From positions 3,613,001-3,677,000 of the forward strand of contig NC_069135.1 in the NCBI RefSeq assembly GCF_026914265.1: 64,000 bases of DNA, given 5' to 3'. The notes under the pieces were generated by a model, which made no database searches, was not told where the DNA came from, and saw only the letters and a program-made list of their open reading frames with translations. This DNA comes from Mya arenaria. Its lineage: Eukaryota; Mollusca; Bivalvia; Myida; Myidae. How positions within the stretch are numbered: position 1 is the first letter of the stretch; each line of letters opens with the position of its first letter. The position numbers were made by a program, and so were the translations under genes. Positions 8,441-57,699 of the stretch are shown one piece after another.

Positions 8441-8575
8441 TTATTTCTGAATCAGATTGTAGAGGCAACACCATAATGTATATCAGGTATCCAACATAGA
8501 TCTCCAACACCTTACCCTTCTAAAAAGCATTAGTCAAGATCTAAAAGAAGAAAAAAAATCAAAGGTAGATACTAC

Positions 8576-10786: not shown

Positions 10787-10789
10787 GTA

Positions 10790-11665: not shown

Positions 11666-11667
11666 CA

Positions 11668-12195: not shown

Positions 12196-12298
12196 CATCC
12201 GTGCACAGTGGCCCACAACCTAACAATACTTATACCCTCGCTGGGTTCGACGCCGATGGACGCGTTTCCCTATAGGGTTGTTGGACAAATACACTCCG

Positions 12299-12322
12299 CC
12301 CCCCCCCCCCCCCCCCCCCCCC
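12299..12322. repeat. Poly-C run
   Basis: A run of about 24 cytosines. It may be unstable in replication and sequencing. No function is suggested. Confidence 0.9.
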
Positions 12323-12329
12323 TCACCCT

Positions 12330-13125: not shown

Positions 13126-13129
13126 CAGT

Positions 13130-13351
13130 TCATTCATTCATTCATTCATTCATTCATTCCTTCATTCCTTCATTCCTTCATTCCTTCCTTCATTCATTCA
13201 TTCATTCATTCATTCATTCATTCATTCATTCATTCATTCATTTCATTCATTCATTCATTCATTCATTCATTCATTTCATTCATTCATTCATTCATTCATT
13301 CATTCATTCATTCATTCATTCATTCATTCATTCATTCATTCATTCATTCAT
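13130..13351. repeat. (ATTC)n microsatellite, about 220 bp
   Basis: Some 50 tandem ATTC tetramers with ATTCC variants at 13157-13190 and occasional extra T. It marks the left edge of the tandem-repeat block that precedes the inverted-repeat arm. Confidence 0.95.
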
Positions 13352-13359
13352 AATGAAAG

Positions 13360-14200: not shown

Positions 14201-14201
14201 G

Positions 14202-14203
<2 letters not shown>

Positions 14204-14242
<39 letters not shown>
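14204..14242. repeat. (CT)n microsatellite
   Basis: About 19 tandem CT dinucleotides between the tandem-repeat block and the start of the left inverted-repeat arm. Confidence 0.95.
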
Positions 14243-14245
<3 letters not shown>

Positions 14246-15002
14246 ATTTCTGATTGCCCATGTTGTTAAAAACCTGCAATGCAGCGCTTCTAGTTTTATC
14301 TAGAAACTCATTTATTTTCATCACTCCAGTTGTGCTCCTTATTTGTGCATTTGCAAAATTCTTTACGCCCCTCAAAGTATTCCCTATCAAACCAATTTCC
14401 CTTCAATTGATCCAGGCCGAAATGGAAGCCTGGCCGAATTTAACCAGATTCCCTACCAGCTGTCCGTCTTGACTCGGGTCAGATAATGGTGATTTTGGCA
14501 CCTTTTCGTTTAGAAGCTTAAAATATTATGAAAATAAAATAAAAAGACACATGCCAATTGACAACAGTTCAACGCCACATGAATTTCTTTTACGACAGAG
14601 ACTGGCATCATTTTAAACTTAATTCAATTTAGAACTACGTAGAAGACATACTCGGCCATACTACAACGTGTCTAAATGGTTGGTAAGTGCCACAAATATA
14701 CGTTTGTGATGCATTTATATAAATTGTGCAGATAAAAGACCCGTGAGAAAACCAATATTTCTACGGAATCTATTTAAAACAGTTCAATCATTTGATCTAT
14801 ATATACAATCGCAACTCCTCGGCTAGTATCAAAAATATATGGTCTACCGCGAAGTTGCCGGAGATGGCCGAGTTGTTACGATTGCTACATATACCCATAT
14901 ACAGGAAGGTAATCACCCAGACATCAGGGTCTGAGATAGTGATTACAAAATATTGATATTGAATTATTTATTTATTGTGAAGTTACAGATAGATCTGTTG
15001 AC

Positions 15003-20832: not shown

Positions 20833-22200
20833 GGATGCTACACACAGAATGCTTTTGCAATGCTTATAAATGGGTTTCTTTTCTAATTTATGCTGATGCA
20901 AACCCAAATAGTTGAAAAACAGACAGATACTGTTGTTGTCATTATATTACACAGCATGATCCTGTTGTCTTGCAATTTTCGAAGGTTGAATTAAATCTTT
21001 CAATTTGTGAATGTTGAGCTATCGTCTTTTGCTTGAATCGACTAATTTCGAAAAAGAACGCGATCCTCCTCCTTTCCGTTAACAAGCATGTCAGTTTTAG
21101 TTTGTATTCAGTGTTGTTAAAAAATAAGCACCAAAAGGCATGATCAAAACATCTGTATTGCAATATACAGTTTAAACAATTACATTTTGATTTACACTTT
21201 CATCAACTTGAATGCTAAAAAGCATGAACAGATGACAACAACAAATTATACTGATGAGACAGTTGTGAATACGACATTAATTACGTATGTTTATAGATTA
21301 AGACATTTGAAATCGTCTTACTACTAGTATATTTTATAACACACATATAGAGTTTCCCTTTGTTTAAGAATGCGTGTGCGACCAAAGTGTGGCTATGTTC
21401 TCGACCGGAAAGTATTTTCGTTTTTGTTGCGACTTAAATGTTATCGATATTAAATATTCAGTAATATGGCTTTGTTTACTTTTTAGGTATTTAAAAAAAA
21501 TGTTAATATCATTCAAATAGAAAACACTACAAAACACATCGTTTCTTCACATCACATGTGTCCTCTTCAATCCTTCCACAAAGGATCATACCATTTTTGT
21601 TCTACCGTGCCGACGTTCTTAATACTACTCGTATAATAGAGATAGGTTCTCTTTCCGACAGGGACTCGGAGCTTACAGACTGACCAACTATAAGTTTTGT
21701 TCCACTACAGTGTGGCCGTAGTTAAAAACGAAAATACAGACATATTAGCTATTGCTGAATGGATACAATGTGTTCACTATTAAATATTATGTCTGGGTGG
21801 TTTTATACATCGTTACATATTTTGGTATACTGATAAAAAAGTCCGAAATAGCTATAAATAGATAGATAGGGTGATACAATCACTTAACACAAATAACGGG
21901 ACGTGCAAACAGTTATCAAAATGAAGGCGCACGTGATATTAACCACTTTAATTATTCTAAATGTTATTGGAATACTTATGTCCCTAAATGTTAACAAATA
22001 TAAAGTTAAATTTGCTTTTGAAATAGTGGAAAACCTTGCAGAGATTAAGTTTAAATCGGGTGATTTTGGATTTAAATATTTAAAACAGGTAAGTGAACAC
22101 AGGTTTATAAATTGACATCCACAGAGTGTTAAGTTTAACATGCAAAACATATGATTGGGGCTAGTTTATTTAGATTATGTATCTGTTGGCACTTAAACTA

Positions 22201-22532
22201 TTTAAAGCTGCACTCTCACAGATTGTTGGTAGCCAATGTTTGCGTAAAAGTCTGGAAAACAGTGATATTAGACTGCTAGTTAAAAGCAGATCGCAATTTT
22301 CATATTAACATTCAAATATTGATGTTCTATTGCTAAACGCATTACTATCGTATTAAGATTAAAGAAAAAAAAAATCGAAAATTTTCCAAACAGTTGAGAT
22401 CTGTGATATCGTGAGTTATCTTTTTTGACTGAATTGAAGGCATTGGTGCCAAAAACACCTGATTCTGAGACAAAAGAAAAAGAAAAAGCGGTCAAACTGT
22501 CAATCTGTGAGAGTGAAGAACAAGACTTTAAA
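22201..22532 (+). mobile_element. MITE in intron 1 of copy B
   Basis: 332 bp with terminal inverted repeats: left TTTAAAGCTGCACTCTCACA, right (reverse complement) TTTAAAGTCTTGTTCTTCAC leading into TCTCACAGATTGAC. Copies sit at the same place in the right arm (28397-28726, inverted) and in intron 1 of copy C (47208-47527), so insertion preceded the B/C split. A degraded relative occurs at 54610-54713. Confidence 0.8.
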
Positions 22533-23971
22533 CGTCAAAAAAGATAATGACAGTGACATATATTTAAAATAACAAAAGGTAAAGAAAATTGTGACGGCAG
22601 CCGCTAACAGTACTTCGTTTTGCCTGAATTGTGTTGACAACTAAACATTCATTGGTCATGCGCAGTTTTTTTTAGCTAGGGTGCGTTTTTATGGGAAATA
22701 CGCAGTCAGTCGTTTTGTGTGCGCTCGAAGAACATTGGTGCGTTTAGTTCTGCCGAGAATAATAGTGTTTCATGCGCTCACAGAACATTTCAATTGGTTC
22801 TGTGAGAAAAAAAAACTTTATTCAATGAGTTTAATTCCCAAAACGGTACAATCTATGTGTTAATTCTTAAATGATTTTAATTCAAATGCTGAATTCGTAG
22901 AACGCAATTTATGCACGTCTTTTGTAATTTCTTATAATAATGAAAGGTATCTAATATAAAGTAAGTATTTTTATAATTATTTCTTTCAGTCCGACATAGA
23001 CTATTGTAGTACATAATAAAACGATCAAACTACATTGTGGTCTTCAGTCTTAAGTCACTCGTTTTAACGGCATTCGATATCGAGCCGTTACAAAAATAAT
23101 TAAAGAGAACAAATATAATTAATCCAGTGCCAGGCTCATTGGTTTCGTGAAAAAAATGTTGGCCAGAGGACTCCATTTGTTTCGAAAACAACATCTTGTC
23201 TTATCGTTATATATGGTTCGTTTCAGCATTTCAGATCGGATATGTGCATTAACTGTGAAAATGAAATTAGAAACGTTTCAAGATTATTAACAGATCTTCA
23301 GCATAAGATGCAAAGAAATTCAACAACAAAATTGATTTACTTAAGCTTACTTCCTTGTTTTGTTTATATGTTTGTGCATGCATTGTACATAAATTGTATT
23401 TAAAATTTTTAAATGTACAAATTTTAAAATTTAAACAAGACTCGTCTTAGAAATTTTAAATAATTTGAAAACGAACGTATAATGATGTATGATTAATCAG
23501 TGTGATATATGCTTGTTGATAAAGATACTTTCGATAGTACTTAAACTTCTGTTTGAAAACTATACAATAGCAGTTATATATTTAGTCGTGTCATTGAATT
23601 CATGACGAAAGTGTTTTGTTTTTTTTGTATTTTATTTTCAATTCCACCTCATCGCTGTTTTCGTAAGTTATGGTATAACGACCCAGCATCGTTCTTAAAT
23701 AATATACAGAAACACATAATTTAGAGTATGTCTTATAATAATGACTATCCATGATCATAGTTTTTTTTTCTTTTCTTTTTAAACTAGACGTATGTTAGAC
23801 TAAGAGGAATTTCTGTCAAAAATACGTTGAACATACGCTTTTAATTCACTTAATTGTTTACATTTGAAAGAATTGACACACTCTATCATATTCATTTGCC
23901 TAGTTAAAAGTTGATTTAAGGCGAAATTTCCCATGGCACGCAGTACCGTGGCTGTTATTCCCTCTGTCTGA

Positions 23972-24297
23972 CATTCAGAACTCCTCGGCCATTTTTATCA
24001 AAGCAACCTCGGATGTATGCCGGTACATCAGTTGAAGTAGTCGATTTTTTTTAATTATATCATTAATTAAATGAAGTGTTTTAGAGTTGTATTTATTGAT
24101 CAAAGTTTAAATTGATTGCCATTGAAGTGTATTATTGCAAACATTACTAAGATTCCCAAGAGTTAAGTCATAAAGTTAAACTGCTAAATAGAATTACTAC
24201 ACGATATACTTTCAGCGGACGTAAACGTACCACTTTTTGAGTATGTGAACCCTCCAAATACAACTGCGGTTGTTTTCGATAAAAGTAGACCCGAATG
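23972..24297. mobile_element. Foldback element, short form
   Basis: The left end CATTCAGAACTCCTCGGCCA and the right end, read in reverse complement as CATTCGGGTCTACTTTTATC, flank an interior that matches the interior of the copy at 59530-60095 in inverse orientation. This copy lacks the ACGGACC-repeat insert found in the other and so serves as its empty-site reference. Confidence 0.65.
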
Positions 24298-24583
24298 TCT
24301 GTTTAATGGAGAGTGCGATGCACTTACTAAAACATGTCAACACAACGTTTAAATGTTGAATATCCAGGGACTCATTGTATATTTGGGGCACTGACCGAAA
24401 AAAGGAAGCCCAAGGAAAGTGTCATTGTTTATTGAAAGTTATATTTTTACAAATATTTTTACCACTGTCAAAAATGATGTTGTTTTGTACAAATAATTGT
24501 TTCAAACATTAATTTAAACACTTTTGAACATATCCACGGATATTTTTAATATTCATTTGCTGTCATTCAAGATTATTAAACTG

Positions 24584-24900
24584 TTTAAGGGACTGTACAC
24601 CAGATTGACACCAAAACAAGTTTTTTTCTGTTACGAATCTCATGACATTTGTTTCATAAATTGTTTCACTCTTAAATATCATAATTGTAAAAAAATGCCA
24701 TACTGTAAATAATCGAGTCGGAGACCGGGTTCGAACATGTGTCGTTAAAAATGGCAGTCCAGTGTTGTACCCACTGTGTTACGAAGGCTTTTCCTACACA
24801 ATTGGAATATTTAAGCTATATACCTTACTTGGTAATATCACGTGATGACATCGACTAGCCAATCACGCATAAGGAATGAATTCTACTAGGTAGACATACC
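24584..24900 (-). mobile_element. Truncated copy of the tRNA-like MITE
   Basis: Inverted relative to the copy at 8907-9407: it starts TTTAAGGGACTGTACACCAG (the other copy's right end), contains the tRNA-like segment at about 24719-24790 and the CACGTGATGACATCGACTAG block, and ends after GGTAGACATACC. From about 24901 the sequence matches copy C intron 1 at 49576 onward, so the second terminal repeat is missing. Confidence 0.7.
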
Positions 24901-25341
24901 AAAATTATTTGTAACGTTTTCTGATCCTGCACTACGACCTAAATTCAAACAAGATATATTTCTTCTGACATCATCAACACTCAAAGGTAGATTTTATAAA
25001 TAAAACAACACTTTCTTTTGTTATATAATATAGTTTCATTGACATATATAACATCAAAATACTTGTTGCTTTAAAATGGTCACACTTATTCTTTTCCAGA
25101 TCGCGAGCAATTTTCATGTGTTTGAGGCAAACACAACAGCTTTATGGCGAGCAGATCAACTTTCACGAGCGTTCAGAGAACACTTTTCAAGCGAGGTCAA
25201 AATGTTTAACATGAAAACATTAATTTGCCTCATTGAACACAAATATAATCTATTGTATTCAAAAATTAAAGGTCAAGAACTCAATTCTTTATTCAGTTTA
25301 ATGAAATGATAAAGAAGTTTCGATAATGGTAATCTTACTTG

Positions 25342-26370
25342 TGTAACCGAACCTCAACGAGTGGTGGTAAGCCGCACGGGCGGTTACAAGAACCCTCAGG
25401 TTCGACACAGGGCAAAGGCAGGGAGGTTAGGTGTGAAAAACAACTGAGATTGGGGTTTTTATATACACAATCTATTCAAGATTTTAAGTTCATTATTTAT
25501 ATTAAAATGTAAATAACACAGTAAAACAAAACAACTATGAAGCTAACAAATGTCTAGCTACACCTGGCTGCTTAGGCAAGCCATAATGCAACGTTATGTT
25601 GTAAGGTTGAAACAATTCTGTCGAGTGCCAAATATTGACAAACACAGTTTAAAAAGCTAATCTCCAAGTAATTTATTTTTAACTATCAAAAATCAGAAAA
25701 CTTTCACATTTCATTTTAATACAATAATCAAGTTTTAAATTGAAATACCTATATGATAAATGTGAGTGGCCCACAGGGAAACCACACACTACCTTGACAG
25801 AGTCCAAGAATGTAAAAATGGTGAAGGTACCGTCAGAGGACAGATAACTTACAGGTACTAATTCAGTCAGTCTTTAATAGAAAGAAAAAAATCCAAGTAT
25901 GGTTTATAAAATATGAATATTAATACAATTAGCACAGTTTAATTTGGTTATAAAATTAACCAAAAGACAAACCTAAACAACTGTAAAACAAGCCTATAGG
26001 TTCGTAATTATAGAACATTTTAATGATATAATTTATTCCAAACAAGCTACTTAAAGAAATCTATTTCATATTTAATTTAATAATAAACACCCTTCCCAAT
26101 GAATCATTTACGAACAAAATGGAACTAACCAGATTTGCATATACAGTTATTAACTGAAAGCAGACAGTAAACTCTAAATATAAAATCATATGACAAAGTA
26201 TAACTTAAACTTTAAATGAAATTGAAAGCAGTATACATTGTAAATCATACTTATTATAATCCAAATAAAAGTACTGAACTTCTTTAGCACGGCAAAATGT
26301 AGTTACATGTACACAACAGTCTACACTATAGACTTCCGTCAGAGTGATTTGGTAGAACCCGTTACATTTG
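25342..26370. mobile_element. About 1.03-kb insertion in intron 2 of copy B
   Basis: Copy C intron 2 runs directly from TCTTACTTG to TATCAAATTTAATAATGA (50006-50030). In copy B the same flanks are separated by this segment. It begins TGTAACCGAACCTC and ends CCGTTACA, giving a short terminal inversion (TGTAAC). I see no coding region and cannot assign a family. It postdates the B/C duplication or was lost from C. Confidence 0.65.
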
Positions 26371-28396
26371 TATATCAAATTCAATAATGACATGTCCTTT
26401 TAAATTTCTTACAGATTTCGGCTGCTGAACCATACTATGAATCCGAAGTTCCCAGTAGACCACCGACCCCTTACCGTGAAAGGAACAGGAGCAGAAACAG
26501 AAGAGACATTCGTATATCTCAAGTAAGAAACTTTTTAATTTTAAGTCTAGGAGGATACAAAAAGAGTAATTAGGTATATGTATATTCAATTGTAGAACAC
26601 AGCTGCCGAATGTCATAAGAAACCTTACACCCCATTTAGCTATGGAACAAGTGAACCATTATTAAAGACATGATTTAAGTATGATTATATTCATGCACTT
26701 TTATTCATTAGTCTTACTTCATGTTTCAGTTGTATAAATCCTGTGCGGTATATTACGACCCGGATGTAGAGGAGGCTTGGAGGTTTGGGTATACAGGGAA
26801 GAATGTCACTGTTGCAGTCGTTGATACTGGTGTCTACGTCGACCATCCAGACCTACGAATGAATGTTGTAAGTAAAAGCCTTCTGTCGGGAGGAAGGTTT
26901 ACAAAACGCCCTATTTTCTAATAACTGTTTATGTTGTTAGTATAAAACCCGACCTTCATGTTTCCACAAACAGCCCCATACAAATATCTACAATTTGGCT
27001 AGCTAAAATTGCACCAAGGCTATAAATAATGTATAGATGATTATCTGCTTCAACGTTGTTTTTTTTCAGAACATCGAACTCTCACATAGCTTTGTCGGTT
27101 TCAACTCAAGCGCCGTAAAGCCTGACACCCTCTTCAGTTACAAAGAATTAAATGAACTTACAGAGTAAGAGGTCAACATTAATACTTTCTTGATTCATAA
27201 GAAAAACCGTTCTGCCCAGTGTTCCTTGCTTCATTTTATGAAATAATAATTGTTAATTTAAAAAAAAGTATATTGGAAATATTAGTGGCAAACATATGCT
27301 AATATAGATGTAAATGACACGACTAAATATATAACTGCTATTTTATAGTGTTCAAACATAAGTTTAAGTGCTATCGAAAGTATCTTTATCAACAAGCATA
27401 TATCACACTGATTAATCATACATCATTATACGTTCGTTTTCAAATTATTTAAAATTTCTAAGACGAGCCTTGAGTAAATTTTAAATCGATGTGTACATTA
27501 AAATACAATTTATGAACAATGCATGCACAAACATATAAAAACAAGGAAGTAAGCTTTAGTAAATCAAAGAAGATCTGTTAATAATCTTGAAACGTTCTAA
27601 TTTCATTTTCACAGTTAATTCACATATCCGATCTGAAATGCTAAAACGAACCATATAGGATGAAAATACATTATGTTGTTTTCGAAACAAATGGCGTCTT
27701 CTCGCCTTTTTTCACGAACCCAATGAGCCTGGCACTGGATTAATTATATTTTGTTCTCTTTAATTATTTTTTTGTAACGGCTCGGCCGATATCGAATGCC
27801 GTTAAAACGAGCGACTTAAGACTGTAGACCACAATGTAGTTTGATCGTTTTATTATGTACTACAATAGTATATGTCGGACTGAAAGAAATAATTATAAAA
27901 AATACTTTATATGAGATAACTTTCACTATGATTATAAGAAATTACAAAAGTCGTGCATAAATTGCGTTCTACGAATTCAGCATTTGAATTAAAATCATTT
28001 AAGAATTAACACATAGAATGTACCGTTTTGGAAATTAAACTCATTGAATAAAGTTTTTTTTCACAGAACCAATTGAAATGTTCTGTGAGCGCATGAAACA
28101 CTATTATTCTCGGCAGAACTAAACGGAATGTTCTTCGAGCGCACAAAAAACGACTGACTGCGTATTTCCCAAAAAACGCACCCTAGCTAAAAACTTGCGC
28201 ATGACCAATAAATGGTAAGTTGTAAACTAATTTAGGCAGAACAAAATCCTGTTAGCGGCTGCCGTCACAATTTTCTTAACCTGTTGTTATTTTAAATATA
28301 AGTCACTGTTAATGTTTAAATGTTATAACTTGAAAAGTTCAGGTATTTCAGCTAAAACTTTTTTTTTTGCTATGTCTACATTATGTTCTATGGACG

Positions 28397-28839: not shown

Positions 28840-29007
28840 CTGTTTTAAATATTTAAATCCAAAATCACCCGAATTAAACTTTATCTCTTCAAAGTTGTCC
28901 ACTATTTCAAAAGCGAATTTAACTTTATATTTGTTAACGTTTAGGGATATAAGTAATCCAATAACATTTAGAATAATTAAAGTAGTAAGTATCATGTGCG
29001 CCTTCAT
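28840..29007 (-). pseudogene. Orphan copy-B-type exon 1
   Basis: ATG at 29007 opens 56 codons with the same signal peptide (MILTTLIILNVIGLLIS) and prodomain start (KVKFAFEIVDNFEEIKF) as B and C, closed by a GT donor. It is intact and of the same 168-nt length. In its reading direction the duplication arm ends at 27315, and the next exons met are those of copy B on the opposite strand. No usable exon 2 follows, so it cannot make a convertase as arranged. Confidence 0.85.
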
Positions 29008-30104: not shown

Positions 30105-33100
30105 CTAGTTGTCACCACGTATAGGTCTTGTACATGGCCCTTTTAAGCAACACCATATCAAGAGGCATGTTAACGAAGAAATTCCTACAATCCACCCAAT
30201 AGCGACAGTAGCAGACTGTGGATTACGTTTGATTTCTTCATATTTTTCATCAGCGAATTCAAACACCTCTTCCGCCAAGTCAAAAATCTCAGATTTGTTT
30301 GAAATATCACTTGGATCGATATACGAATAAATGGTACTTGCTTCCTTCAGATCACTCACTCCGTAAAAGGAAATTGATATATTTCGTATTGTAAACAGCG
30401 ATTCTGAAATATAGTTCAACTGTTATAAAATATATTGTACACATCGTTTCTTTTATTGTATAACATATAATATTGACAACCGCAATTGTGTTAAAACATG
30501 TTGCTGATAGAACTGTTGACTTGTATCTATAAATAGGGTGTTTTTGTAAATTACAGAATATATCATTTCGCATGGATCTTTTCATTTTAAACCATAAACC
30601 AATTTAGTAAATCTATTTGTACTACTCAATTTTAAGCAAACGTAAATATTCATATTAACAAGTATTACCTTGTTCTTGGTTCTTTTTAAAAAATATTTTC
30701 CATTCTCCAGTCAGAAGTTCTCCCCAAAAATGTACAGAGGTAAAGGTCCAGTGTATCATTGCAGGTCCATTAAGTGATTTTGTTTCTGTGGTATTTGATT
30801 TCTTATGAGACAAAAGGTAACTCAAAGTCTTGGAAGGTGATTTTAGAACTATATCGATATCTTCAACTTTGGTATTGCTAATCTCAATGTCAACGAATAC
30901 TGCAACTTGTTCAAGTAATTTAGGATATAACGATTCTTTCAACGGTGGAACACTGGTTTTGGAACTGACAATACTGGTGAATCTGAAATAGAGGAACTCG
31001 TTCATTAGTAAGTTACTTTTAAATTTCAGTTGTCAATATCCATCTTACAGAACTTCACATGCTTTTAAAGCACTGAGATTTGATAAATACACGATTGCAT
31101 ATACACGTACACCTTATCCGAGTCTTTATTGAAAATGGTTGTATAACTAAGCTGTCTTGCGACTGGAAACCATACACGCGCCTTCAAAACCATTGCAGTT
31201 GCGTTCATCAATCCAAAACCGAAATACTTGTCAACTGAAATCAGATACGAGTTAAAAAATAATATAATCATTTTTATATCTCACATCGAGCAGATGAGTA
31301 TAGACGTACATATATATACTTATTTTAACAAGTAATATTAAAAAAAAAGAACAAAACAAAATGGTGATGTATGTAATACTATACTATGAAGCCCTACATT
31401 TTAATCCAGCTGCATTTTGCACCGAGTTTCCATATCGTTTCACGTTCTCTAAAGACGATGTGAGGACGATAATGTACTGAACGTCTCTGCAAGTTAGCCT
31501 TGGGCTTCAATGGGTATAAAACAAAAAATACATATTCCATAGATATCATACTATATATCAGAAAAAAACACACATTCTGACGGAGTTTGGACACCAGCAT
31601 GTCATTTTTTTATATTTCCATTATATACAATCTCATTTCTACTATCCCGTTATTAAAAAAAATACCAGCAGTGTACAGTAAAAAAATTCCCTCAAAAGAT
31701 AAAACATGAGAACTTCACTGACTAAACATACTTGGCTTCCAACATAATGGCAATCATTCCAGAAGCTCTCGCAGCGGCCGCTGAAGTTCCTTGAAATATC
31801 GCGCATGAGTCCCAATTGCTTGTTGATTTCTAGTTTTGTGAATTCAAAATCAGAAATCGATTTTAGAATCTTCTATAAGCACATGAGTCTCTTATTTTAA
31901 TTAAACTCGAGATTTATAATTTCAATATTAAACATTTGAACAGTCAATTGTTTTTTTTTTTACATTTTTTTAATAAAAATACTGAATATAACTACAGTTA
32001 TTTAGTATAATGAAAGCTATATAATATGAAGCATATAACGTTATAACACACACTTTTTAGATTTTACTAATTGAGCACATACCAATATATCTCCTGACCA
32101 CGTGCGGAAATCTCCGAAGGTAGCAGCCAGAATGCATGCTCCTGGCCTTACGTATTTAGGTCTCTTCCCATGCCTTCCGACACTTGCTATGGTAATAGTA
32201 TAAATACTGCTGGCATAAAACTCCATGTTGCGGTCATGAATTTTCGTGTTCTGTCCAAAGTTATTTCCAGCGGAAAATACAAAAATACTGCCTTTTCCTT
32301 GTCTTCCCTACAATATTGAATATGTGTATGTGTAAAGAAGCACATTTTACAATAACTATTGATAACTATTCTTAGCAATAGCATGCATTTGAAGGAAACT
32401 CTCAACAGTATTTGATTGAGGTAGGTTCAACGAAGGGATTGCGGTATAAATACCTTTTCAACCCCTCCTTTAAGAACTGTCTTGGATTCAATGGCGTTGG
32501 CTGTAAAAGGGTTATCCAGATTGAAACTACACGAGTAAATGTCGATGACATCCCTCTTGTGTCCAAGAGCAGCAGGGATCTTCTCATTGTTAAAAAGAAT
32601 AAGCCTCAATCCCGTCAGTTCTAGTTGGTCCTTGTGAAAAACCTTAAGTGCTAACCACGACAAGTAAAGACAATGGAATGACTTTAAGCATTAATTATTA
32701 GTTAACATATTTACTTTATCCGATTGAAACACTGTCTGAAATCCTTCGTTTGCATTGATCTTTTTGCGAGATTATTGTTATTTACATGTGCTTTGTTCAT
32801 TTTACGAATCAACAAAAGTATTGAAAAGTTATAGTTCGTTTGTTGAATTAATCCTTAATTATTATTCTCATGTATTCGACTGACCTACAACAGATGAATT
32901 GAAAGCTACCCCCGCAAAACACACATCGTTTCCCATCTCTGCTCCGACAATTCCAGCTGCCAAAGTTCCATGACTGAAGTGTTTAGCCATTTTGAAATGT
33001 CCGTATGTTCTCGAAGTCAATGTTTAAATCCATGACATTTTTACGTTTTATGGTCTTGAACTTGGCACACCAATGATTATAACGTTTAAGTTGTTTATTT

Positions 33101-33500
33101 TAATTACCTTTTTAGTACTTATCAGGAGGTGCATCTAAACTTTAAATTATTATGCGGCTGATTGGGAAAAAAACTACATTTTATCGCAAATCACATAATA
33201 ATATAAAACTAAAATGAAAAATACAGGGACTAGCCCAGTAATATCTTAGGCGAATTACTTTCGAGCTTTGATTTATGCTGTACAAGCAACTTTATGTTCT
33301 TACTCTGTATATGTGTTGTATTCTGGATAATTATGAGATCGCTGAGGTTCCACGTGACCTGTGTTGTCCTCATTTACAAAACTAAACGAAAGTGCCTTAT
33401 TCTGAAAATATACAATGTGAAAACATAAAAACCATTGTGCTTGTGACAAACAATTATTACTTTCTCAGAACTGTATCGGAAGAAGAAGAAGAAGAAGAAG

Positions 33501-33532
<32 letters not shown>

Positions 33533-35535
33533 TTGTTTTGCACTATGAAACAAAACCAAAATATGTAGTCGAATACACTTTTACCTAACGTACGAATTGT
33601 GACCATCCGTTTTTAGTTCAATAAAAGAAGTAACCTTCAAATAATTAAGAATAATGTCTCAAATTATAGAACGAAAAGATGCTTTGTATCAAAGGTTTAT
33701 TTCCTTCATTAAACTAGGATCATTTAAACATATGTTTAAACACTTTCATATCCAGGGACAGTATACTAACATTTTAATGGATGTGCAGCCATTTCCAAGT
33801 ATCTCTTAATTAGAAATGAGAGTGTGAAAAGTTATGCTATACGTACAATATTCCGTTTCAGGTCTGGATGGTTGATATAAACTCCTGTGTCCACGATGGC
33901 GACAGTGACCCCCTTTCCTGTGAATCCCAAACTCCATGCCCTCTCAACATCTGGGTCGTAATATGCTGGACAAGATTTGAACAACTGAAAATAAAAGATT
34001 GCTATTAATCCGGATAACATTGAGTCTGTTTTTAAATTAAAATCTACGCGTGTTCATTGAATTTGCAAAGGCGGTAGCCCCAATGTATTACATTGTTGCA
34101 CAGCATGTGGAGTTCCATTGCATTGATGTCCTGTCGTATACAGTCCTTCAAGTTATGTTCTTGGTCCATTAAATCTAGACTAGTGTTTGCCCTTGTTCTA
34201 TCCATCCCCCTCTTAATTCAACAGACGAGTTGCAAAAGTTGCGATTTGTTGTGTTTTAATTTGAAAGGTTGATCTAATATGTCCCAAAAATGCATATATC
34301 TAGTCAAATTCCAATTACGTATGTGTTCTGTTTGTTCGTATATTGTTTGCATTTGCTTCTCAACTCTGACAGTACCTACCGTTGATTTTTCCAAGCTTCT
34401 TTTATATTTTAGCTTTTTCTTTTCAGAAGGGTATGGTGTTGGTGGTCTGTGTTGGATGCCTGATATACTATATGGTTCTGCCTCTACGATCTGAAGCAGC
34501 CAAAGAAAATTTTGACATGTCTACAGGTCAATATGAGTATTAATAGTTAAACAGCATACACAACTGTTAACAATTGTTATTGTGTAAGCCGAATTTAATT
34601 ATCAACAAATTAATCATGGACATATATATAGTCAGGCATGTTTTTGCATTCAAAATTATCAAATGATAGGTAAGCGATAATGCAATAATATAAACGTCAT
34701 TGCAGTATGATTAATACCTGGTTTGAAAAATGATCCCTGAAAGATTGCAGCATGTAGTCAGCTTCACCTTTTCTTGTTGCATTTGCCTCAAAAATGTAAA
34801 TGTTTGAAGCAATCTGAAATTTATTATTTAGAACAGACATGACAGTATTTCATCCTTAGAGCTACGTTTAAAGGAATGATTTAATATAAGACTGATTTGA
34901 TAGAACAATCGATCAGCGGACAATAATGTCTGCTCTGAAATGTTCTAACAAATTTACGTCGAAATCGCATCCCAAATGCTTTTAATAATATCAACGTACA
35001 TTTTGTAAAATTATTGATATATTACTATGTATGCTTTGGTTATATGTATAAACAATTAACATGTGGATCAATGTTAAACATTCAATCTATACATTGTTAT
35101 TAATATTTGGCAATATTGATCTATTTTATATGTCTTCATGTTGTCAGGTATGTATGACCTGAGGGATATAAAAATGTTTGTATTGTATTGTTTGCATGGA
35201 TCTGTATTGAAATATCATACACGATGCATGCACATACATGAATTTGTAGCATGTCAATATCAATGAGGGACAATGTTTACGAAAGTAAATTCTTAATATC
35301 TAAAAGAGATCTATATCATTATTGATTGCGAATCGGGAAGTAAGACATTAAATTAAAATACCTTCTTTAAAAAAACAAATTTAAATCTTGAAGACTGTTG
35401 CAGAATGACCTCGAAAGTGTCGTTTATTTCCAATGAGTATCTTATTCCAAGTTCATCAGCACTAATGTTCAAAATAAAGCACTGAATCCAAAATAGATGA
35501 AATAAATTCATCATAATTCTTAAATCAAATGACAT
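30105..35535 (-). CDS. Proprotein-convertase-like copy A', apparently intact
   Basis: Thirteen exons, high to low coordinate: 35362-35535, 34718-34813, 34380-34490, 33847-33984, 33304-33401, 32885-32973, 32454-32650, 32083-32307, 31732-31829, 31398-31504, 31105-31234, 30669-30982, 30105-30403. They sum to 2076 nt, 691 codons plus stop, with consistent phases and GT-AG borders. The order is: signal peptide; prodomain ending in a KYKR basic site; S8 domain with Asp (IVDTGVYINHPDL), His (HGTLAAG), Asn (SAGN) and Ser (GTSAAAARASGM); P domain (IDIVLKSPSKTLSYLL); acidic stalk; and a membrane segment (VAIGWIVGISSLTCLLIW) with a short tail ending RPIRGDN. It should act in the secretory pathway as a type I membrane protease. 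The furin specificity residues are altered (GPED region to NLDN; pocket Asp to Glu), so dibasic processing is doubtful. The tail is shorter than copy A's because of a TAG where A has CAG. Confidence 0.85.
33480..33531. repeat. (GAA)n microsatellite in intron 4 of A'
   Basis: Seventeen or so tandem GAA/AAG triplets. The direct copy at 37373-37472 has the complementary TTC array, while copy A has a GTT-type run (16962-16981) at this point. Confidence 0.9.
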
Positions 35536-36824: not shown

Positions 36825-37372
36825 GTGTCTTTTTATTTAATTTTCATAATATTATAAACTTCTAAACGAAAAAGTGCCAAAGACGTTTACGAATCACCAT
36901 TATCTGACATGAGTCAAGACGGACAGCTGATAGGGAATCCGGTTAAATTCGGCCAGGCTACCATTTCGGCCTGGATCAATTCGGCCCACTTTTTGTATTT
37001 TGTATATGTTGTATTTTGGTATGAACAACCATCCAGACCTGAAACGGAATATAGTACGTATAGCATAACTTTTCACACTCTCATTTCTAATTAAGAGATA
37101 CTTGGAAATGGCTGCACATCCATTAAAATGTTAGTATACTGTCCCTGGATATGAAAGTGTTTAAACATATGTTTAAATGATCCTAGTTTAATGAAGGAAA
37201 TAAACCTTTGATACAAAGCATCTTTTCGTTCTATAATTTGAGACATTATTCTTAATTATTTGAAGGTTACTTCTTTTATTGAACTAAAAACGGATGGTCA
37301 CAATTCGTACGTTAGGTAAAAGTGTATTCGACTACATATTTTGGTTTTGTTTCATAGTGCAAAACAACACTT

Positions 37373-37472
37373 CTTCTTCTTCTTCTTCTTCTGTTTCTGT
37401 TTCTTCTTCTTCTTCTTCTTCTTCTTCTTCTTCTTCTGTTTCTTCTTCTTCTTCTGTTTCTTCTTCTTCTTG
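37373..37472. repeat. (TTC)n microsatellite with TTTCTG interruptions
   Basis: About 100 bp of TTC triplets in intron 4 of copy D, longer than the partner array in A' and interrupted by GTTTC variants. It produces a long poly-Ser open frame that is not a gene. Confidence 0.9.
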
Positions 37473-39694
37473 TAACACCCTTTTTTGGAAAGTGTTGCAG
37501 AGAATTATACAGTTCTGAGAAAGTAATAATTGTTTGTCACAAGCACAATGGTTTTTATGTTTTCACATTGTATATTTTCAGAATAAGGCACTTTCGTTTA
37601 GTTTTGTAAATGAGGACAACACAGGTCACGTGGAACCTCAGCGATCTCATAATTATCCAGAATACAACACATATACAGAGTAAGAACATAAAGTTGCTTG
37701 TACAGCATAAATCAAAGCTCGAAAGTAATTCGCCTAAGATATTACTAGGCTTGTCCCTGTATTTTTCATTTTAGTTTTATATTATTATGTGATTTGCGAT
37801 AAAATGTAGTTTTTTTCCCAATCAGCCGCATAATAATTTAAAGTTTAGATGCCCCTCCTGACTGTTCAAATGTTTAATATTGAAATTATAAATCTCGAGT
37901 TTAATTAAAATAAGAGACTCATGTGCTTATAGAAGATTCTAAAATCGATTTCTGATTTTGAATTCACAAAACTAGAAATCAACAAGCAATTGGGACTCAT
38001 GCGCGATATTTCAAGGAACTTCAGCGGCCGCTGCGAGAGCTTCTGGAATGATTGCCATTATGTTGGAAGCCAAGTATGTTTAGTCAGTGAAGTTCTCATG
38101 TTTTATCTTTTGAGCGATTTTTTTTACTGTACACTGCTGGTATTTTTTTTAATAACGGGATAGTAGAAATGAGATTGTATATAATGGAAATATAAAAAAT
38201 GACATGCTGGTGTCCAAACTCCGTCAGAATGTGTGTTTTTTTCTGATATATAGTATGATATCTATGGAATAAGTATTTTTTGTTTTATACCCATTGAAGC
38301 CCAAGGCTAACATGCGAAATGATATATTCTGTAAGTTAAAAAAACACCCCATTGACACATACTAGTCAACTGTTTGATCAGCAAAATGTTTGAACACAAT
38401 TTCGGTTGTTTAAATGATATGTTATACATTAAAAGAAACGATGTTTTCAATATTCTTTACAATAGTTGAACTTTATTTCAGAATCGCTGTTTACAATACG
38501 AAATATATCAATTTCCTTTTACGGAGTGAGAGCTCTGAAGGAAGCAAGTACCATTTATTCGTATATCGATTCCAGTGTTATTTCTGACGAATCTGATATT
38601 TATGACATAGCGGAAAAGGTGTGTGAATTTGCTGGTGGACAATATGAAGAAATCAAACGTAACCCAAATTCTGTTACTGTCGCTGTTGGATGGATTGTAG
38701 GAATTTTACCATTATTAGGCATTATTAGGCATTTTGATATGGTGTTACGTAAACAGGTTCTTCAGAAGAGCTATACGTGATGACAACCAGGAACATCCGG
38801 AGGAGGAGCTGAGACTTCAGCAGTGAGAAAAGACAAGTGTGGCAAGCGATGATTAGGTTTATAGACATTCAGGAATTGAAAGAATACAGGCATGTAAATA
38901 AAAGCTATATTGGAACGGTCAGCGAATGATTAGAGGAAATATATGCGGGGTTTAAAGCGGATATTATATGAACAGTTTCTTACGTAATATACAAGCATAC
39001 ATACAAAATGGATTTATCGCAGTATGTTTGTCAAATTACTAGTATGCTGTTATAGAGTCGACAATAGATGAGTACTTCCACAACACAGAAGGGCAAATCT
39101 ACATAGTAATGTATTGCTGTCCATGCAATGGTCAGTCATGGACCATCATGCATCAAGCATGATGGCTAAGTTATAAACATTGGTAAGTATTTGGCTTACG
39201 GGATTCGGACAGAGCACATCACTGAAAATGATGACATGGATATTATCATAGTTTTATGGGATCGAGGTTATTTTTGTAAAGCATTGAGTTTCGCAGTGTG
39301 ATATGTTGTACGTCGAGGATATGCGATCCTTTGAGTTTTGAATGAAGGGAATGAACATATATATACATACTGCTTTATCAAGATATTTTGTTTTAACAGG
39401 AATGTTGTTTGACACAAGCAGTATAGACTACTGTTAGCACAAAATGCATTTGAAGTTTGAAAATTCATTTATGAAGGAGTATATTGTAACGTTCGGCGTT
39501 TTCATAGGTAATAACCAAACATCGATATTTGTTGTTATCACTAGGATTGGAGCTGTTGAAGACAGATGACTATTCAGTGAAATGCCTTTATTTGTTAAAC
39601 AAGTAGTTCATGGCTGGTTACGAACATATACATTTGCACTGTCTTTGTCTTTTGGCTGTCATAATCTATATACCTTAATCTTGTTTATATAAAA

Positions 39695-46923: not shown

Positions 46924-49900
46924 ATGAAGGCGTACATGATATTTACTACTTTAATTATTCTTAATGTTACTGGAATACTTATATCCGTAAATGTTTACAA
47001 ATATAAAGTTAAATTTGCTTTTGAAATAGTGGACAACTTTGAAGAGATAAAGTTTAAGTCGGGTGATTTTGGATTTAAATATATAAAACAGGTAAGTGAA
47101 CACAGGTTTATAAATGGATATCCACTGAGTGTCAAGTTTTACACACAACCCATCGGAATGGGGCTAGTTTATTTAGATTATTACGTATTTGTTGGCATTT
47201 ACAACTGTTTAAAGCTGCAATCTCACAGATTGATTATAGCCAATGTGTGCGTAAATGTCTGGAAAACAGTGATATAAGACTGCTAGTAAAAAGCAGATCG
47301 CAATTTTCATATATACGTTCGAAATTGATGTTTTAAGGCTTAAAGCGTTACTAAAGTTTTGAAATAAGAAACTAAATTATCGGAAGTTTTCCAAACAATT
47401 GAGATCTGTATTATCATGAGTTATCATTTTTGACTGAATTGAAGGCATTGGTGACAAAAACAGCTGATTCTCAGACAAAAGAAGAAGAAGCTGTCAAACA
47501 TTCAATCTGTGAGAGTGAAGCTTTAAACGTCTATAGAACATAATCATAGTAGACATAGCAACAATACATGCTTTAGCTAAATTACCTGAATTTTTCAAGT
47601 TATATTATTTAAACATTAACAGTGACATATATTTAAAATAACAAACGGTTAAGAAAATGATTAAAGAGAACAAATATAATTAATCCAGTGATTCATTGGT
47701 TTAGTGAAAAAAATAGTCGGTCAGAAATTGTATTTAAATGTACACAACAATATGAAAATTTCCTCAAGACTCGTCTTAGAAATTTGAAATAAACTGTACT
47801 TGAAAGCTAACGTATAATGATCTATGATTAACCAGTGTGATCTATGAGTGTTCATGAAGATACTTTCGATGATACTTAAATTCCTGTTTGAACACTATCA
47901 AATAGCAGTTATATATTAAATTGTGTCATTGAATTTAAGACGAATTTTTTGTTTGTTTGTTTTGTATTTCATTTTAATTTCCATCTCATCGCTTTCTTTC
48001 GTAGTTCATGATATAACGACCTAGATTGGTCTTTATATATGTGTTCAGAAACACATAATTTAGATTATGCCTTATAATAATGACCATGCACGATCCTAGT
48101 TTTCTTTTCTTTTTAAACTAGACTTATGTTAGACTAAGAGGAATTTCTGTTATAAGTACGTTGAACATACGCTCTATCATATTCACTTGCCTAGTTGAAA
48201 GTTTATTTAAGGCGAAATTTCCCAAGGAACTGACTGTTATTCCCTCTGATATAATGGACATTTGCGTTGAACTTACTAAAACATGTCAACACAAAGTGTT
48301 GAATGTCAGGGACTCATTGTAACTTTTTGGGCACTGACCGATGTAAGAAGCCCAAGAAAAGTGTCATTGTTTATTGAAAGGTATATTCTACAAATGTTTT
48401 CACCAATGTCGGATAACTGACAAAAATGATGTTGTTTTGTACAAATAATTGCTTAAAACACTAACTCAATTGGACACTTTTTGAATATATCCATGAGTAC
48501 TTTTCATATTTATTTACTGTCATTCAAGATTATTAAAAGTTTTAATGATCATGAAGGAAGTGTACGGATTTCATTTTTATACTTTGAATATAGGGAAAAA
48601 TACATACATGTTGGCAATAAAACGGTAACCATGTTGCAAATGCTAATATAGGGACTAATGCATTATGTATTTATTTATGGATTACACATCGTTTATACAA
48701 TTATTTGTGTAACAATGTGATTACCAACAATTTTATTATTCCTATAAATTTTATATATAACTATCAGTTCATTTTTTGCATTATTTATTGTTAAGATTGT
48801 TCAATGGCCACGATATACGAACACTTCAACTCTAAATAGATCAACTTGTATAGGCTTATTAAAGGTACATTTTCTAATGCTACAGTTGTGTTGTTTTTTG
48901 TAATTTGTTGTTAGTCATTTATATAGCTACACATGGGACATGTACCTATAGTGTGGCTGTAACTTTGTTTCAAAAACACAAAAAACACACGCACAGCTAC
49001 CATGCAAGCTACAGCTTTAGAAATACAACTTCAATTGTGACTTGACATGTTGCTCAGTATGTATTTAGAGCACATTTCATATCATAATAGGACACATAAG
49101 TGCAATGACAAACAATATTGTTTAAAGTTGATGTTGAATTCTACGAAATGGCCGCACTTGAATAATATCAATCGCAATAAAAAATGAGTAAGCATGCATC
49201 CTTCGCCTAGCTACACCATTGCAACCTATTCGTTTCGTATCAAGATATTAAATCATGTCCGTTACGTCATCAATTATTCTTTCCGTAGTATAATGTTACG
49301 TTATTAAATTCGTGAATTATGTAATAGCTTATGTAAGCAAATAACAAATTATAACGATATATATATACTATAGCATCTTTGAACGGTATAACTTACGAAC
49401 ACTCCTTTGATCTTTCTTACAGAGAATTGTATGTATTCTTTGAAAAAGCCACGTTAATTTGATATGTTAAAAAGCTTTGAAGATATTTCATCTGTTAAAA
49501 AGTACCTTATTTGGCATGCCTCACAACCTTCAAAGCTTATTAAACAACATGTATCATATTCATTATACAAAAACTTATTTGTAACTTTATCTGATCCTGC
49601 ACTACGACCGAAATTCAAACAAGATATATTTCTTCTGACATCATCAACAGTTAAAGGTAGATTTTATAAATAAAACATCCCTTATTTCTTCATATAATAT
49701 AGTTTCATTTACATAAATAACATCCTAATATTTGTTGCTTTAAAATGATCACACTTATTATTTTTTTCCAGATCGCGATCAAGCTTCATGTGTTTGAGGC
49801 AAACACAACAGCTTTATGGAGAGCAGATCAACTTTCACGAGCGTTCAGAGAACAGTTTTCAAGCGAGGTCAAAATGTTTAACATGAAAACATTAATTTGC

Positions 49901-52900
49901 CTCATTGAAGACAAATATAACTTATTTATTTTAAAATTTAAAGGTCAAGAACACAATTAATATTCAGTTTAATGAAATGATAAAGAAGTTTTTGATAATG
50001 GTGATCTTACTTGTATCAAATTTAATAATGACATGTCCTTTTAAATTTCTTATAGATTTCGGCTGCTGAACCATACCATGAATCCGAAGTTCCAAGTAGA
50101 TCACCGACCCCTTACCGTGGAAGGAACAGGAGCAGAAACAGAAGAGACCTTCGGAAATCTCAAGTAAAAAACTTTTTCATTTAAGTCTAGTAGGATGCAA
50201 AAAGGGTTAGTTGGTATATGTATATTCAATTGTAAAACACAGTTGCCGAATGACATAAGAAACCTTACACCCCATTTAGCTATGGGACAAGTGAACCATT
50301 ATTTAAGCGATGATTTAAGTATGATTATAATCATGCACTTTTATTTGTTAGTCCTACTTCATGTTACAGTTGTATAAATCCTGTGCGGTATATTACGACC
50401 CGGATGTAGAGGAGGCTTGGAAGATTGGGTATACAGGGAAGAATGTCACTGTTGCAGTCGTTGATACTGGTGTCTATGTCGACCATCCAGACCTACGAAT
50501 GAATGTTGTAAGTAAAAGCCTTCTGTCGGGAGGAAGGTTTACAAAACGCCCTATTTTCTAATAACTGTTTATGTTGTTAGTATAAAACCCGACCTTCATG
50601 TTTCCACAAACAGCCCCATACAAATATCTACAATTTGGCTAGCTAAAATTGCACCAAGGCTATAAATAATGTATAGATGATTATCTGCTTCAACGTTGTT
50701 TTTTCAGAACATCGAACTCTCACATAGCTTTGTCGGTTTCAACTCAAGCGCCGTAAAGCCTGACACCCTCTTCAGTTACAAAGAATTAAATGAACTTACA
50801 GAGTAAGAGGTCAACATTAATACTTTCTTGATTCATAAGAAAAACCGTTCTGCCCAGTGTTCCTTGCTTCATTTTATGAAATAATAATTGTTAATTTAAA
50901 AAAAAAAGTATATTGGAAATATTAGTGGCAAACATATGCTAATATAGATGTAAAGGCACCATTGGTATCCGATCCGATCTTGATATATTTCTATTTTTGC
51001 ATTCAGTTTGATTATTATGACCGTCCTTCCATAAATATGATATAAAGTTTTCGTTAGGCTTTTGGTATAACTAACCAGTAAAGTTGGCTTTCTATAAAAG
51101 GATATTCTTTTTCATGCACGATAGCCACGGAACCCTTGCAGCCGGAATCATTGGATCAGAAAGAGGGAACCAAATATGTTCTGCTGGCATTGCTTTTAAC
51201 GCAACTCTTGTGGGTTTGTCAAGTTCTTACAAGTTCTAACAGTAGATTTTATTCTTATTCACCTGCTCTGTACAAGGTCCACTTTGTTCTACCTAATGTT
51301 AAACGTGTTTGATTTTAAACTGTTATTTATTTATGTTTCTTAAGTCGAAATAATACGGATTACTTTTATAGGTTTAAAGGTGTTCAAACTAGATGAAGAG
51401 GACATCAAAATCCTTAAAGCCTTCAAGCATGTCTCATTCAGCAACGAGAAAATACCTGCTGCATTAGAATATAAAAGAGACGTAATTGACATTTATTCGT
51501 GCAGCTTTAACCTTAGGTCAGCGTTTGTCAAAAATGACATTGAGACCAAGACGATATTGAAAGAGGGAGTCACAAAGGTATCAAGAAATATGTTGATAGA
51601 CTAAGTCATACATATGATTCGCGATAGTTTCAACTTCTGGTTTAGTTGTTCGAACCCCTTGATCTAGTCAACTTGTCTAGCACTCCTCCATTCCGGATAT
51701 TTCAACGAAAATTAGATGTCCTTTAGTGCCAGGGTGTCAAGAGCGTTTTCACCAGATATGGTCAAACTCTATAGTAACATAGTGCAAAATGATATGGATT
51801 TTCTGCATTAGTCTACAGTAGGGCTAGTATAATTGTTGAATTATATGACAGTGTAAACAAACTTAACTTGTGTTTTTCATTAACAGGGAAGAAACGGAAA
51901 AGGTAGTATATTCGTGTTTTCTGCCGGAAACGCAATGACTGGCGACATCCATGACAGAAACATGGAATTTTATGCAAGCAGTGTATACACCATCACTTTT
52001 TCGAGTGTCGGAAAACATGGAAAGCGACCTTCATATACCCAACCCGGTTCATGCATTTTGGCTGCAACTTTCGGCGATTTTCGAATATGGGCCGGGGAAA
52101 TATTAGTGAGTTATTTTACAAATGAATTTATTAGTACAAAGACAGAAACAAACAATATAAACCGTTTAAGTGTTGTCATGCGTATGTAGTGTCTGTTTTA
52201 TATGATAGTTATATATGCGTTTGTTAGTGAAAATGTCTTATTTGTGCAACAGAAATCCACAGCAAGAGAAACCCAATGCAAGAAATTCCAAGGAACCTCA
52301 GCGGCGGCGGCCAGAGGCTCGGGAATGATTGCTCTCATGTTGGAAGCCAAGTAGGCAATTTGGAAAGATTGTAATTGGTACAGTCCTTACAATTTTGAAA
52401 GAATAATAATCTTGTTCATGCAACAGGGTGATACAGAAAGTCGCTTTCAAGAAAACTTGAATTCTTTTGATAGAAATAGATACTATTATATTTCCTTAAA
52501 TGCAATGGAAACTAAAGCAGCAAGCCGAGCAGCTGAAAGCATAATAGTTCGTTTAAATGCATACTGATCAAATACCAAAGCCAAACAGGCAATTATTATG
52601 AGACCTTTTATTGAACCATTTCACATACAAATTAAAAGTAATTTATTTTCATTCTAGTCCCTTTTTGACATGGAGAGATGTGCAGTATATAATCATTCTC
52701 TCGTCTTCATTGGACAATGTGAACAGTCAGGGATATACCGCATGGAATGTAGCAGGCCGAAGATGTGCGTTTAGAGTTATAACATACATTTTATTATAAT
52801 TTCTTCAGTTTAAATGGATGCACTCAGGCTTATCATGACCTTATAATTCTTAAAGATGCACTCTTACTCCCAAAAAAGAATTACCACAATTAATAATATT

Positions 52901-54360
52901 TTTTAATAATACAAAAAGGATGAATAAATGTCGAAAACAATGGTTCTTATGAAAGATACCGAGTTGAAATTTGAAAGAAATTAGCACAACACACGGTATT
53001 TCTACCTTATAAGACTATAGTAGACCACAGTAAATGTTTTAGCATTCACCAATCATTTAATATTTTTGCGCATTCTGCTATTGAATACCCGGTTACAATA
53101 TGGTTATCAGTAATTAATATTTTCCATAAATGCATTATTTAGTAAGTAGTTAAAGGTTAAATAGGCACAATTGATGTTTGTTAAACTTGTGTACGTATTG
53201 ATTTTGAATAAGAGTGTCACTTGAATGATTGTATGGTTAAAATTTTGACAAAAATGGTGTTAAAAACGTATTTTGCTGGAGTTGTTCATCCCTCTAACCA
53301 CTTGAGTCTGTTAAAAAGATGTATGTTCTATTCTAGATAACCAGTATTTTGGATTCGGTTTGATGAATGCGACAGCCATGGTGCTGACCGCGAAAAATTG
53401 GAGCTCGGTATCGAAACAACGTACCATTTCAGCGAGGCCACATTCTTTTAGAAAGTAATGCCATACATTAACTAAGGTTTTTATCAATGCTGTGCATTCT
53501 GTAAAATTAAATAAAGAGTATACAAATAAATTATAACACATCCAAGTTATGACGGATATTGTATTCACTATTTTTATTTACTTTTCAGACTTGCCAGTTC
53601 AAAATATAATGCAACTATAGCTATAACAAATATACCTGTATGTGCCACGCCAAGTTGTCTACAGTTGGTAGAACAAGTAGAAGTGTTCCTTAACTTTACA
53701 TTGGCGCAGGGGGGTCTAGCAGATATGGAGATATTGCTCGTTTCACCTTCAAATACTCTCAGTTATCTTTTGAGCCAAAGGGAACAAAATTGGGATAAAC
53801 AACCAAAGCGACAGCAAGTATGGAACATCGAGTGGTCCTTTACTTCTGTTCATTTTTGGGGCGAACCGGTGAATGGCACATGGGTTCTTCTGATTCAGAA
53901 TAATATCAGTTCAACCAGCAGTGGTAAGTATGATGTTTTTAAAGTTTTAAACAAATGATCAATGACGATTTATTTGTTTAATTTGTCATGTGTAGACCTT
54001 ATGGCTGCGTCAAAAATAAAACATGCCGTTCACTTTTCAGATTGGATAGTAAAACTTCGTGATGTATCTCTGACATTCTATGGTGTGAAACGAAGAAAGC
54101 AGTATATAAAAAAAGAGGAAAAGTACCAATTTTCAAGCGACATTAGTGTTGTAAATGATATGCAGCGACTTTTGCGTGAATCGGATGTGTTTGAATTGGA
54201 AACAGTAAAATCAAAATTGATTGAAAAAACTGTTAAACCAAAGAACGAGTGGTCGTTCATATTAGTGCTCAAAGTGTTTATTATAAGTATGTGTTTGTAT
54301 GTCTTGATATTTGGCTGCTTTTTATGTTATAATTATGTCATACCGATAGCTAAGTGGTAA
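46924..54360 (+). CDS. Membrane-anchored proprotein-convertase-like protease, copy C (intact)
   Basis: Thirteen exons: 46924-47091, 49772-49867, 50056-50163, 50370-50507, 50708-50802, 51125-51213, 51372-51577, 51887-52105, 52253-52350, 52658-52764, 53337-53454, 53589-53923, 54041-54360. They sum to 2097 nt (698 aa), phases agree, and all borders are GT-AG. Residues 1-22 form a signal peptide; the prodomain runs to RNRSRNRR (about 111-118). The S8 domain has Asp156 (VVDTG), His203 (HGTLAAG), Asn315 (SAGN) and Ser389 (GTSAAAARGSGM). The P domain is about 455-592 (LLVSPSNTLSYLL, WSFTSVHFWGE). A charged stalk precedes one membrane segment (about 664-690), then PIAKW and stop. It is expected to mature in the ER/Golgi as a type I membrane protease. 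Furin's specificity acids are replaced (see findings), so its substrates are not predictable. The stop codon lies in a SINE. Confidence 0.9.
47208..47527 (+). mobile_element. MITE in intron 1 of copy C
   Basis: Orthologous copy of the element at 22201-22532, with TTTAAAGCTGCAATCTCACA at the left and CTTTAAA at the right. Its presence in both B and C places the insertion before their duplication. Confidence 0.75.
47530..49770. other. Rest of intron 1 of copy C
   Basis: Its first part (47630-48480) is collinear with B intron 1 (about 22535-24510), minus the foldback element. The part at 48490-49560 has no partner in the window. A 69-codon open frame at 49464-49673 (KYLIWHASQPSKLIKQH) looks weakly coding but has no splice partner and only its last third is shared with copy B (24905-25005). 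Confidence 0.55.
52849..53115. mobile_element. Short non-autonomous element, copy 2, in intron 10 of copy C
   Basis: Begins CTTAAAGATGCACTCTTACTCC and shares GTCGAAAACAATGGTTCTTATG and TTTAGCATTCACCAATCATTT with the element at 13468-13735. No coding capacity. Confidence 0.6.
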
Positions 54361-57691: not shown

Positions 57692-57699
57692 ATTGGCTG

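Follow-up and report, generated by a model that had tools for sequence, protein, structure and literature searches.

The question raised by the locus described here is whether a protease of furin/kexin descent can keep its catalytic machinery whole while the acidic pocket that gives such enzymes their preference for basic residues is rebuilt. The stretch concerned (hereafter the window) comprises 64,000 nucleotides of the bivalve Mya arenaria, namely 3.613–3.677 Mb of contig 14 (NC_069135.1) in a genome of 18 contigs and 1.216 Gb, and it contains a cluster of convertase-like genes of which the one called copy C is the main subject; coordinates within the window are collected in Table 1. The best explanation, and in our judgement probably the right one, is that the cluster codes for membrane-anchored serine proteases of the secretory pathway, of furin/kexin (P-domain) descent, that retain the full catalytic machinery and stand midway between the basic-specific convertases and a set of relatives possibly unable to cut in trans any longer. 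What can be read directly is the catalytic triad and oxyanion Asn, the P domain, a membrane helix, a dibasic motif at the prodomain end, the loss of D154, D258 and E331 (furin numbering) with Glu at 306, lasting purifying selection on the protein (seen between copies B and C), and the position in a tree. Humans have seven furin-class enzymes with a P domain, and in well-studied animals the class is small and strongly conserved; the window copies are a P-domain subtilase clade combining intact catalysis with a rebuilt basic pocket, and the radiation of genes that surrounds it in this genome is the more striking result.

The 698-residue product proposed for copy C in the first-pass annotation was reproduced by splicing, with 13 exons and every intron GT-AG. 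One choice within this model affects what follows: upstream of exon 6 there is a second in-phase acceptor, which would yield FMHDSHGT, but the longer exon was not adopted because copies A and B carry a homologous AG directly before the His codon, and the residues read before His203 hinge on this choice. For copy B (called A' in that annotation) the length of 691 residues given earlier could not be recovered, the spliced product having 682, or 689 if an upstream in-frame ATG is used. Pfam recognises Peptidase_S8 and P_proprotein in copy C (1.3e-32 and 3.5e-13, for a 696-residue model predating refinement of the splice boundaries) and in copy B (6.1e-38 and 5.3e-11), while NCBIfam gave matches only far under its cut-offs. 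The convertase prodomain (Pfam S8_pro-domain) found no match up to an expectation value (E) of 1 in copy B or in the isolated prodomain of copy C, for which the sole Pfam match was an unconvincing one to a domain of unknown function at 0.087; the prodomain is possibly a divergent one. Near the C-terminus all three of the copies compared have a hydrophobic helix (residues 665–683 in C, 652–670 in B and 631–649 in A), and an N-terminal one passes the same threshold in C only.

Furin and Kex2 rank first among the 41 distinct PDB sequences matched to copy C (E 7.8e-57 and about 6e-48 respectively), with both catalytic and P domains aligned, and a profile comparison gave 1.2e-53 over 432 columns. 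The features of class S8B (furin/kexin) are thus in place, namely triad and oxyanion Asn within a subtilase domain that is followed by a P domain, with furin and Kex2 as nearest relatives, although the grouping with these against 11 prokaryotic rows is of moderate support (84/87). Furin (mouse 1p8j, human 4omc) aligns with copy C through the subtilase and P domains (C residues 124–606) at 32% identity; it likewise has a C-terminal membrane helix and a dibasic prodomain end, but differs in its pocket acids, as set out below, and in that copy C shows no Pfam convertase prodomain and would, if cleavage occurs at its dibasic site, have about 8 residues fewer at the mature N-terminus. Yeast Kex2 (1ot5) has the same two domains and is also 32% identical to copy C, but it keeps the acids at 154, 258, 306 and 331, and Kex2 and furin (42%) are closer to each other than either is to copy C. 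Prokaryotic S8 proteases from a genome scan share the subtilase domain, the best E being 1e-24 on a scale that covers the candidate stretches alone. In a tree with 11 of their reading frames, taken from 10 of the 19 loci, they fall outside the group of furin, Kex2 and window copies, a long-branched row from Verrucomicrobia coming nearest; within that group furin and Kex2 pair to the exclusion of the window copies (99/98), to which long branches may contribute. A bacterial origin was rejected, as the gene has 12 introns and the prokaryotic matches are weaker than that to furin (E-values here not being on one scale).

Residues were compared by aligning copies A, B and C to mouse furin, the loop at 258 being examined in a multi-gene alignment as well; the register of the furin alignment is uncertain at residues 191, 230–236 and 257–264. 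The triad and oxyanion Asn proposed in the first-pass annotation stand, D156, H203, N315 and S389 of copy C aligning with furin D153, H194, N295 and S368, and the counterparts in copy B are D152, H200, N309 and S385. As to the pocket, passages in PMC11680514 and PMC8453481 assign D258 and D306 of furin to the S1 site, D154 and D191 to S2, and E236 and D264 to S4, and the functional roles of these acids are also treated in part of PMC12703725. In all of A, B and C residue 154 is Thr (T157 in C), and 306 is Glu (NMEFY against NCDGY, without a gap in the motif), both as claimed earlier for C, and the further claim that copy B follows C at 154, 306 and the triad is borne out by the alignment to furin. 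The Thr that had been placed at D191, on the other hand, is one residue off: D191 lies at −3 to the His and the Thr at −2. The residues preceding the His read LTD in C, YTD in B and YTN in A, so that without gaps the −3 place holds no acid, while position −1 is Asp in B and C and Asn in A. At 258, where Ser had been proposed, the absence of Asp holds good but the Ser does not, since it presumes that there is no gap; the loop YSASWGPEDDG of furin has become YSCSFNLRS in C and YSCSFNLDN in A and B, and because it is three residues shorter than in the canonical rows of the multi-gene alignment only the statement that 258 is not Asp is safe. A change that had been overlooked is that of E331, which C replaces by Gln and the other two copies by Arg. 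In furin E331 is a ligand of the calcium ion of the S1 site, the third such ligand being D301, and the counterpart of the latter was read as Asp in the furin alignment and as His in the alignment of a survey of exon 8 described below. Less certainly, there being insertions nearby, E236 aligns with Ile and D233 with Asn. The acid set of the basic-specific convertases (D154, D258, D306, E331) is therefore not that of the window copies.

Searches of the genome gave matches at 77 places with copy C, 71 with furin and 144 with a divergent relative, which indicates a large family, a place being an exon match and not a gene, and only the best candidates being scored; outside the window cluster no place found with copy C exceeds 56% identity to it. 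P domains were found at 72 places, three of them in the window, some genes giving two exons. The same genome has furin-like genes at contig C3:61.65 Mb and C3:85.13 Mb and PC1-like, PC2-like (with oxyanion Asp) and PC7-like genes at C3:77.72 Mb, C11:66.76 Mb and C5:27.12 Mb, the last three labels resting partly on known motifs. In every exon that could be read these genes keep D154, D258, D306 and E331, the check leaving out exon 4 for the PC1-, PC2- and PC7-like genes, exon 7 for the PC7-like gene and, in the PC2-like gene, the segment with E331. It may be added that the second furin-like gene (C3:85134482-85135258) carries exon 8 twice, the two versions lying side by side and differing in sequence (CSCDGY and CNCDGY); they are possibly mutually exclusive exons that would swap the oxyanion/S1 segment.

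A tree was built from exons 4 and 6–9 (28 rows, several without one or more of these exons; 270 columns; LG+G4). The window copies group together (99.6/100) as sister to a group of seven rows that lack the oxyanion Asn (93.8/98), and both lie inside a larger expanded clade (96.2/95), some other genes of which also deviate at 258 (e.g. SWGPVGDG at contig C17:16.68). Deep branches among the canonical convertases are mostly poorly supported. Approximately unbiased (AU) tests rejected forcing the window copies together with furin (p 0.00017) or with the PC1-like (0.00099), PC2-like (0.0040) or PC7-like gene (0.012), or with a gene on contig C6 (0.016). The proposal of a separate convertase family is upheld by this result, and the placement among ordinary furin, PC1/3, PC2 or PC7 orthologues that would have spoken against it was rejected, this being the one animal genome covered. 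When Kex2 and divergent rows were omitted the window copies stayed in the expanded clade (87.3/89), but their grouping beside genes of contig C16 reached only 56.5/69, which makes any exact place within the clade tentative. A divergent convertase-like gene at contig C13:63107101-63111894 has Asn295, Glu in the 306 column and GTSFSAP, and sits on a long branch.

The sister group was surveyed through 56 exon-8-type places, found with one divergent query. As the oxyanion Asn is absent from the query too, this count describes the divergent group and not all subtilases of the genome; nor do places equal genes, because some near-identical ones may be haplotype duplicates. The residue at furin N295 is Asn in two places (both at contig C8:70.6 Mb) and something else in the other 54 (P 15, Q 14, R 6, H 6, Y 4, L 2, S 2, F 2, K 2, M 1), and the D301–D306 loop is missing in all 56. 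For 51 of these places exon 9 was sought and could be read at 34, and judged by eye the catalytic Ser is kept in 27 and lost in 6 (L128, L129, L150 and L156–L158), L154 being doubtful; it is kept in the remaining five of the 56. Wherever exons 4 and 6 were read, which was at a minority of the 56 places, Asp153 and His194 are present, with the exception of one damaged exon 4 at contig C1:54.9 Mb. The two places with Asn (L148 and L154, C8:70616620-70632340), where the oxyanion residue is kept though the loop is gone, may represent an early branch of the radiation.

Two known cases offer a model for such proteins. PCSK9 cuts its own prodomain once and is thereafter a binding protein, though it lacks a comparable P domain. 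In the part of PMC4182778 that deals with it, the oxyanion mutant N309K of PC1/3 is described as cutting its own prodomain while being inert in trans, and this, by analogy, suggests that the sister group consists of self-cleaving binding proteins; the window copies differ in keeping the oxyanion Asn. A bolder version, to be held only tentatively, is that some fifty convertase-derived proteins, with the triad mostly kept where read but the oxyanion Asn and S1 floor lost, would cut only their own prodomains and then serve as non-enzymatic ligands or receptors, a far larger parallel to PCSK9, the window copies being the surviving enzymatic branch in which the basic-pocket acids were lost before the oxyanion residue. 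One genome here holds a graded series, from canonical convertases through intact catalysis with a rebuilt pocket to a radiation without the oxyanion residue, and as a result the order of loss (specificity, then catalysis) and the roles of the products become testable. No paper on convertase expansion in bivalves was found at title and abstract level in the top-ranked part of most result sets and the whole of the others, with subscription literature largely outside, which is weak evidence.

Returning to the window copies, the zymogen would be cut at its dibasic site, either autocatalytically or through furin, and the mature enzyme would stay bound to the membrane. Its S1 site would no longer rely on Asp258 and bound calcium but on one remaining Glu, from which it may be inferred that a single basic or polar residue is accepted at P1, with no demand for basic residues at P2 and P4. 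A number of observations weigh against this. At the expected prodomain end, judged by motif and position only, copies A to D all retain a dibasic motif (RNRR↓D in C and D, KYKR↓S in B, VYKR↓S in A). The distance from there to the catalytic Asp is 37 residues in B and C, as against 45 in furin. Retention of such a motif is what would be expected of enzymes still cutting after basic residues; the window enzymes either are activated in trans by one of furin type or still accept Arg at P1. A gapped alignment sets Glu199 of copy C opposite D191, and, in uncertain register, the S6 residue E230 has Asp opposite it in each of A, B and C, as has D264 of S4 in A and B, C carrying Arg at the latter. Together with the Glu at 306, common to the three copies, and the Asp that adjoins the His in B and C, such acids could stand in for those lost, so that ordinary dibasic specificity would be kept and the zymogens would cut themselves at RNRR or KYKR. 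This we regard as rather unlikely, given that D154, D258 and E331 are all altered, that the loop at 258 is shortened, and that D258, D306 and E331 are kept, where read, in the canonical-looking genes elsewhere in this genome (furin-, PC1-, PC2- and PC7-like). Since the S1 Glu survives, an Asp adjoins the catalytic His and the dibasic site persists, a loss of basic preference is nevertheless unproven, and the altered or relaxed preference proposed in the first-pass annotation is something that we infer from these residues.

It could also be that the window proteins, like PCSK9, cut their prodomains once and have no enzyme activity in trans. The loss of the oxyanion Asn in 54 of the 56 places of the sister group and the behaviour of the PC1/3 mutant (PMC4182778, in the part already mentioned) lend this some colour, but A, B and C keep that Asn and the whole triad, which makes it improbable. 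Least credible of all, and very improbable indeed, is that the cluster is a decaying array of tandem and inverted copies without function. The further copies were located by tblastn of the window with the exons of copy C, and several of them are consistent with decay: exon 7 of copy A has lost its final 33 coding bases and its splice donor, leaving B and C as the intact genes, while D, E and F are fragments. The ratio of non-synonymous to synonymous substitution rates (dN/dS) is moreover 0.62 for A–B and 0.82 for D–C (five exons), i.e. the youngest pairs are under little constraint, and this too counts against the enzymatic interpretation. B and C have full reading frames and all splice sites, however, and between them dN/dS is 0.226 at a dS of 2.06 (saturated), a conservation far beyond chance; their lineages have long been kept as proteins, to judge from these rates.

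Table 1 Features of the window (positions within the 64,000 nucleotides).
Feature	Position	Strand	Remarks
Copy C, whole gene	46924..54360	+	see text
Copy C exons 1, 2, 5	46924-47091, 49772-49867, 50708-50802	+	
Copy C exon 3	50056-50163	+	prodomain end, RNRR↓D, residues 115-118; likely zymogen cleavage site (inferred position)
Copy C exon 4	50370-50507	+	catalytic Asp156 within VDTG; Thr157 at furin D154
Copy C exon 6	51125-51213	+	catalytic His203 (TDHGT)
Copy C exon 7	51372-51577	+	shortened loop at furin D258
Copy C exon 8	51887-52105	+	oxyanion Asn315; Glu327 at D306; Gln352 at E331
Copy C exon 9	52253-52350	+	catalytic Ser389 (GTSAAAA)
Copy C exons 10, 11	52658-52764, 53337-53454	+	
Copy C exon 12	53589-53923	+	bulk of P domain
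Copy C exon 13	54041-54360	+	C-terminal stretch with membrane helix
Copy B, complete gene	30105..35514	-	13 exons
Copy B exons 1-5	35514-35362, 34813-34718, 34490-34380, 33984-33847, 33401-33304	-	
Copy B exons 6-9	32973-32885, 32650-32454, 32307-32083, 31829-31732	-	
Copy B exons 10-13	31504-31398, 31234-31111, 30982-30669, 30403-30105	-	
Copy A	10637..20401	+	13 exons (exon 7: 17829-17998), close to B; probably broken or mis-spliced
Copy D	21921..27164	+	C-like, exons 1-5 only: 21921-22088, 25100-25195, 26415-26522, 26730-26867, 27070-27164
Copy E	28840..29007	-	single C-like exon 1, nothing else
Copy F	37026..38860	+	A/B-like fragment: at least end of exon 4, exon 9, exon 13
Exon-3-like fragment	8456..8563	+	weak (E 0.014), with stop codons

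The pairs A–D and B–E are arranged as an inverted duplication about a point near 28 kb, in which 15074-20367 and 35345-30052 are 89.7% identical; this duplication of an A-like and C-like pair (10637-38860) may be genuine or may result from two haplotypes joined in assembly. Remains of a non-long-terminal-repeat (non-LTR) element lie at 2317-4784 on the reverse strand (reverse transcriptase 4.6e-24, endonuclease-reverse transcriptase 4.1e-10). Just upstream of copy C, at 42984-46136 on the forward strand, there is a DIRS-like arrangement whose matches are all under the Pfam cut-offs (tyrosine recombinase 9.4e-6, PCIF1_WW 6.5e-6, Dam-like methylase 1.8e-5 and a weak reverse transcriptase at 0.0045), and a reading frame with a THAP domain (1.6e-9) occupies 57254-57697 on the reverse strand.

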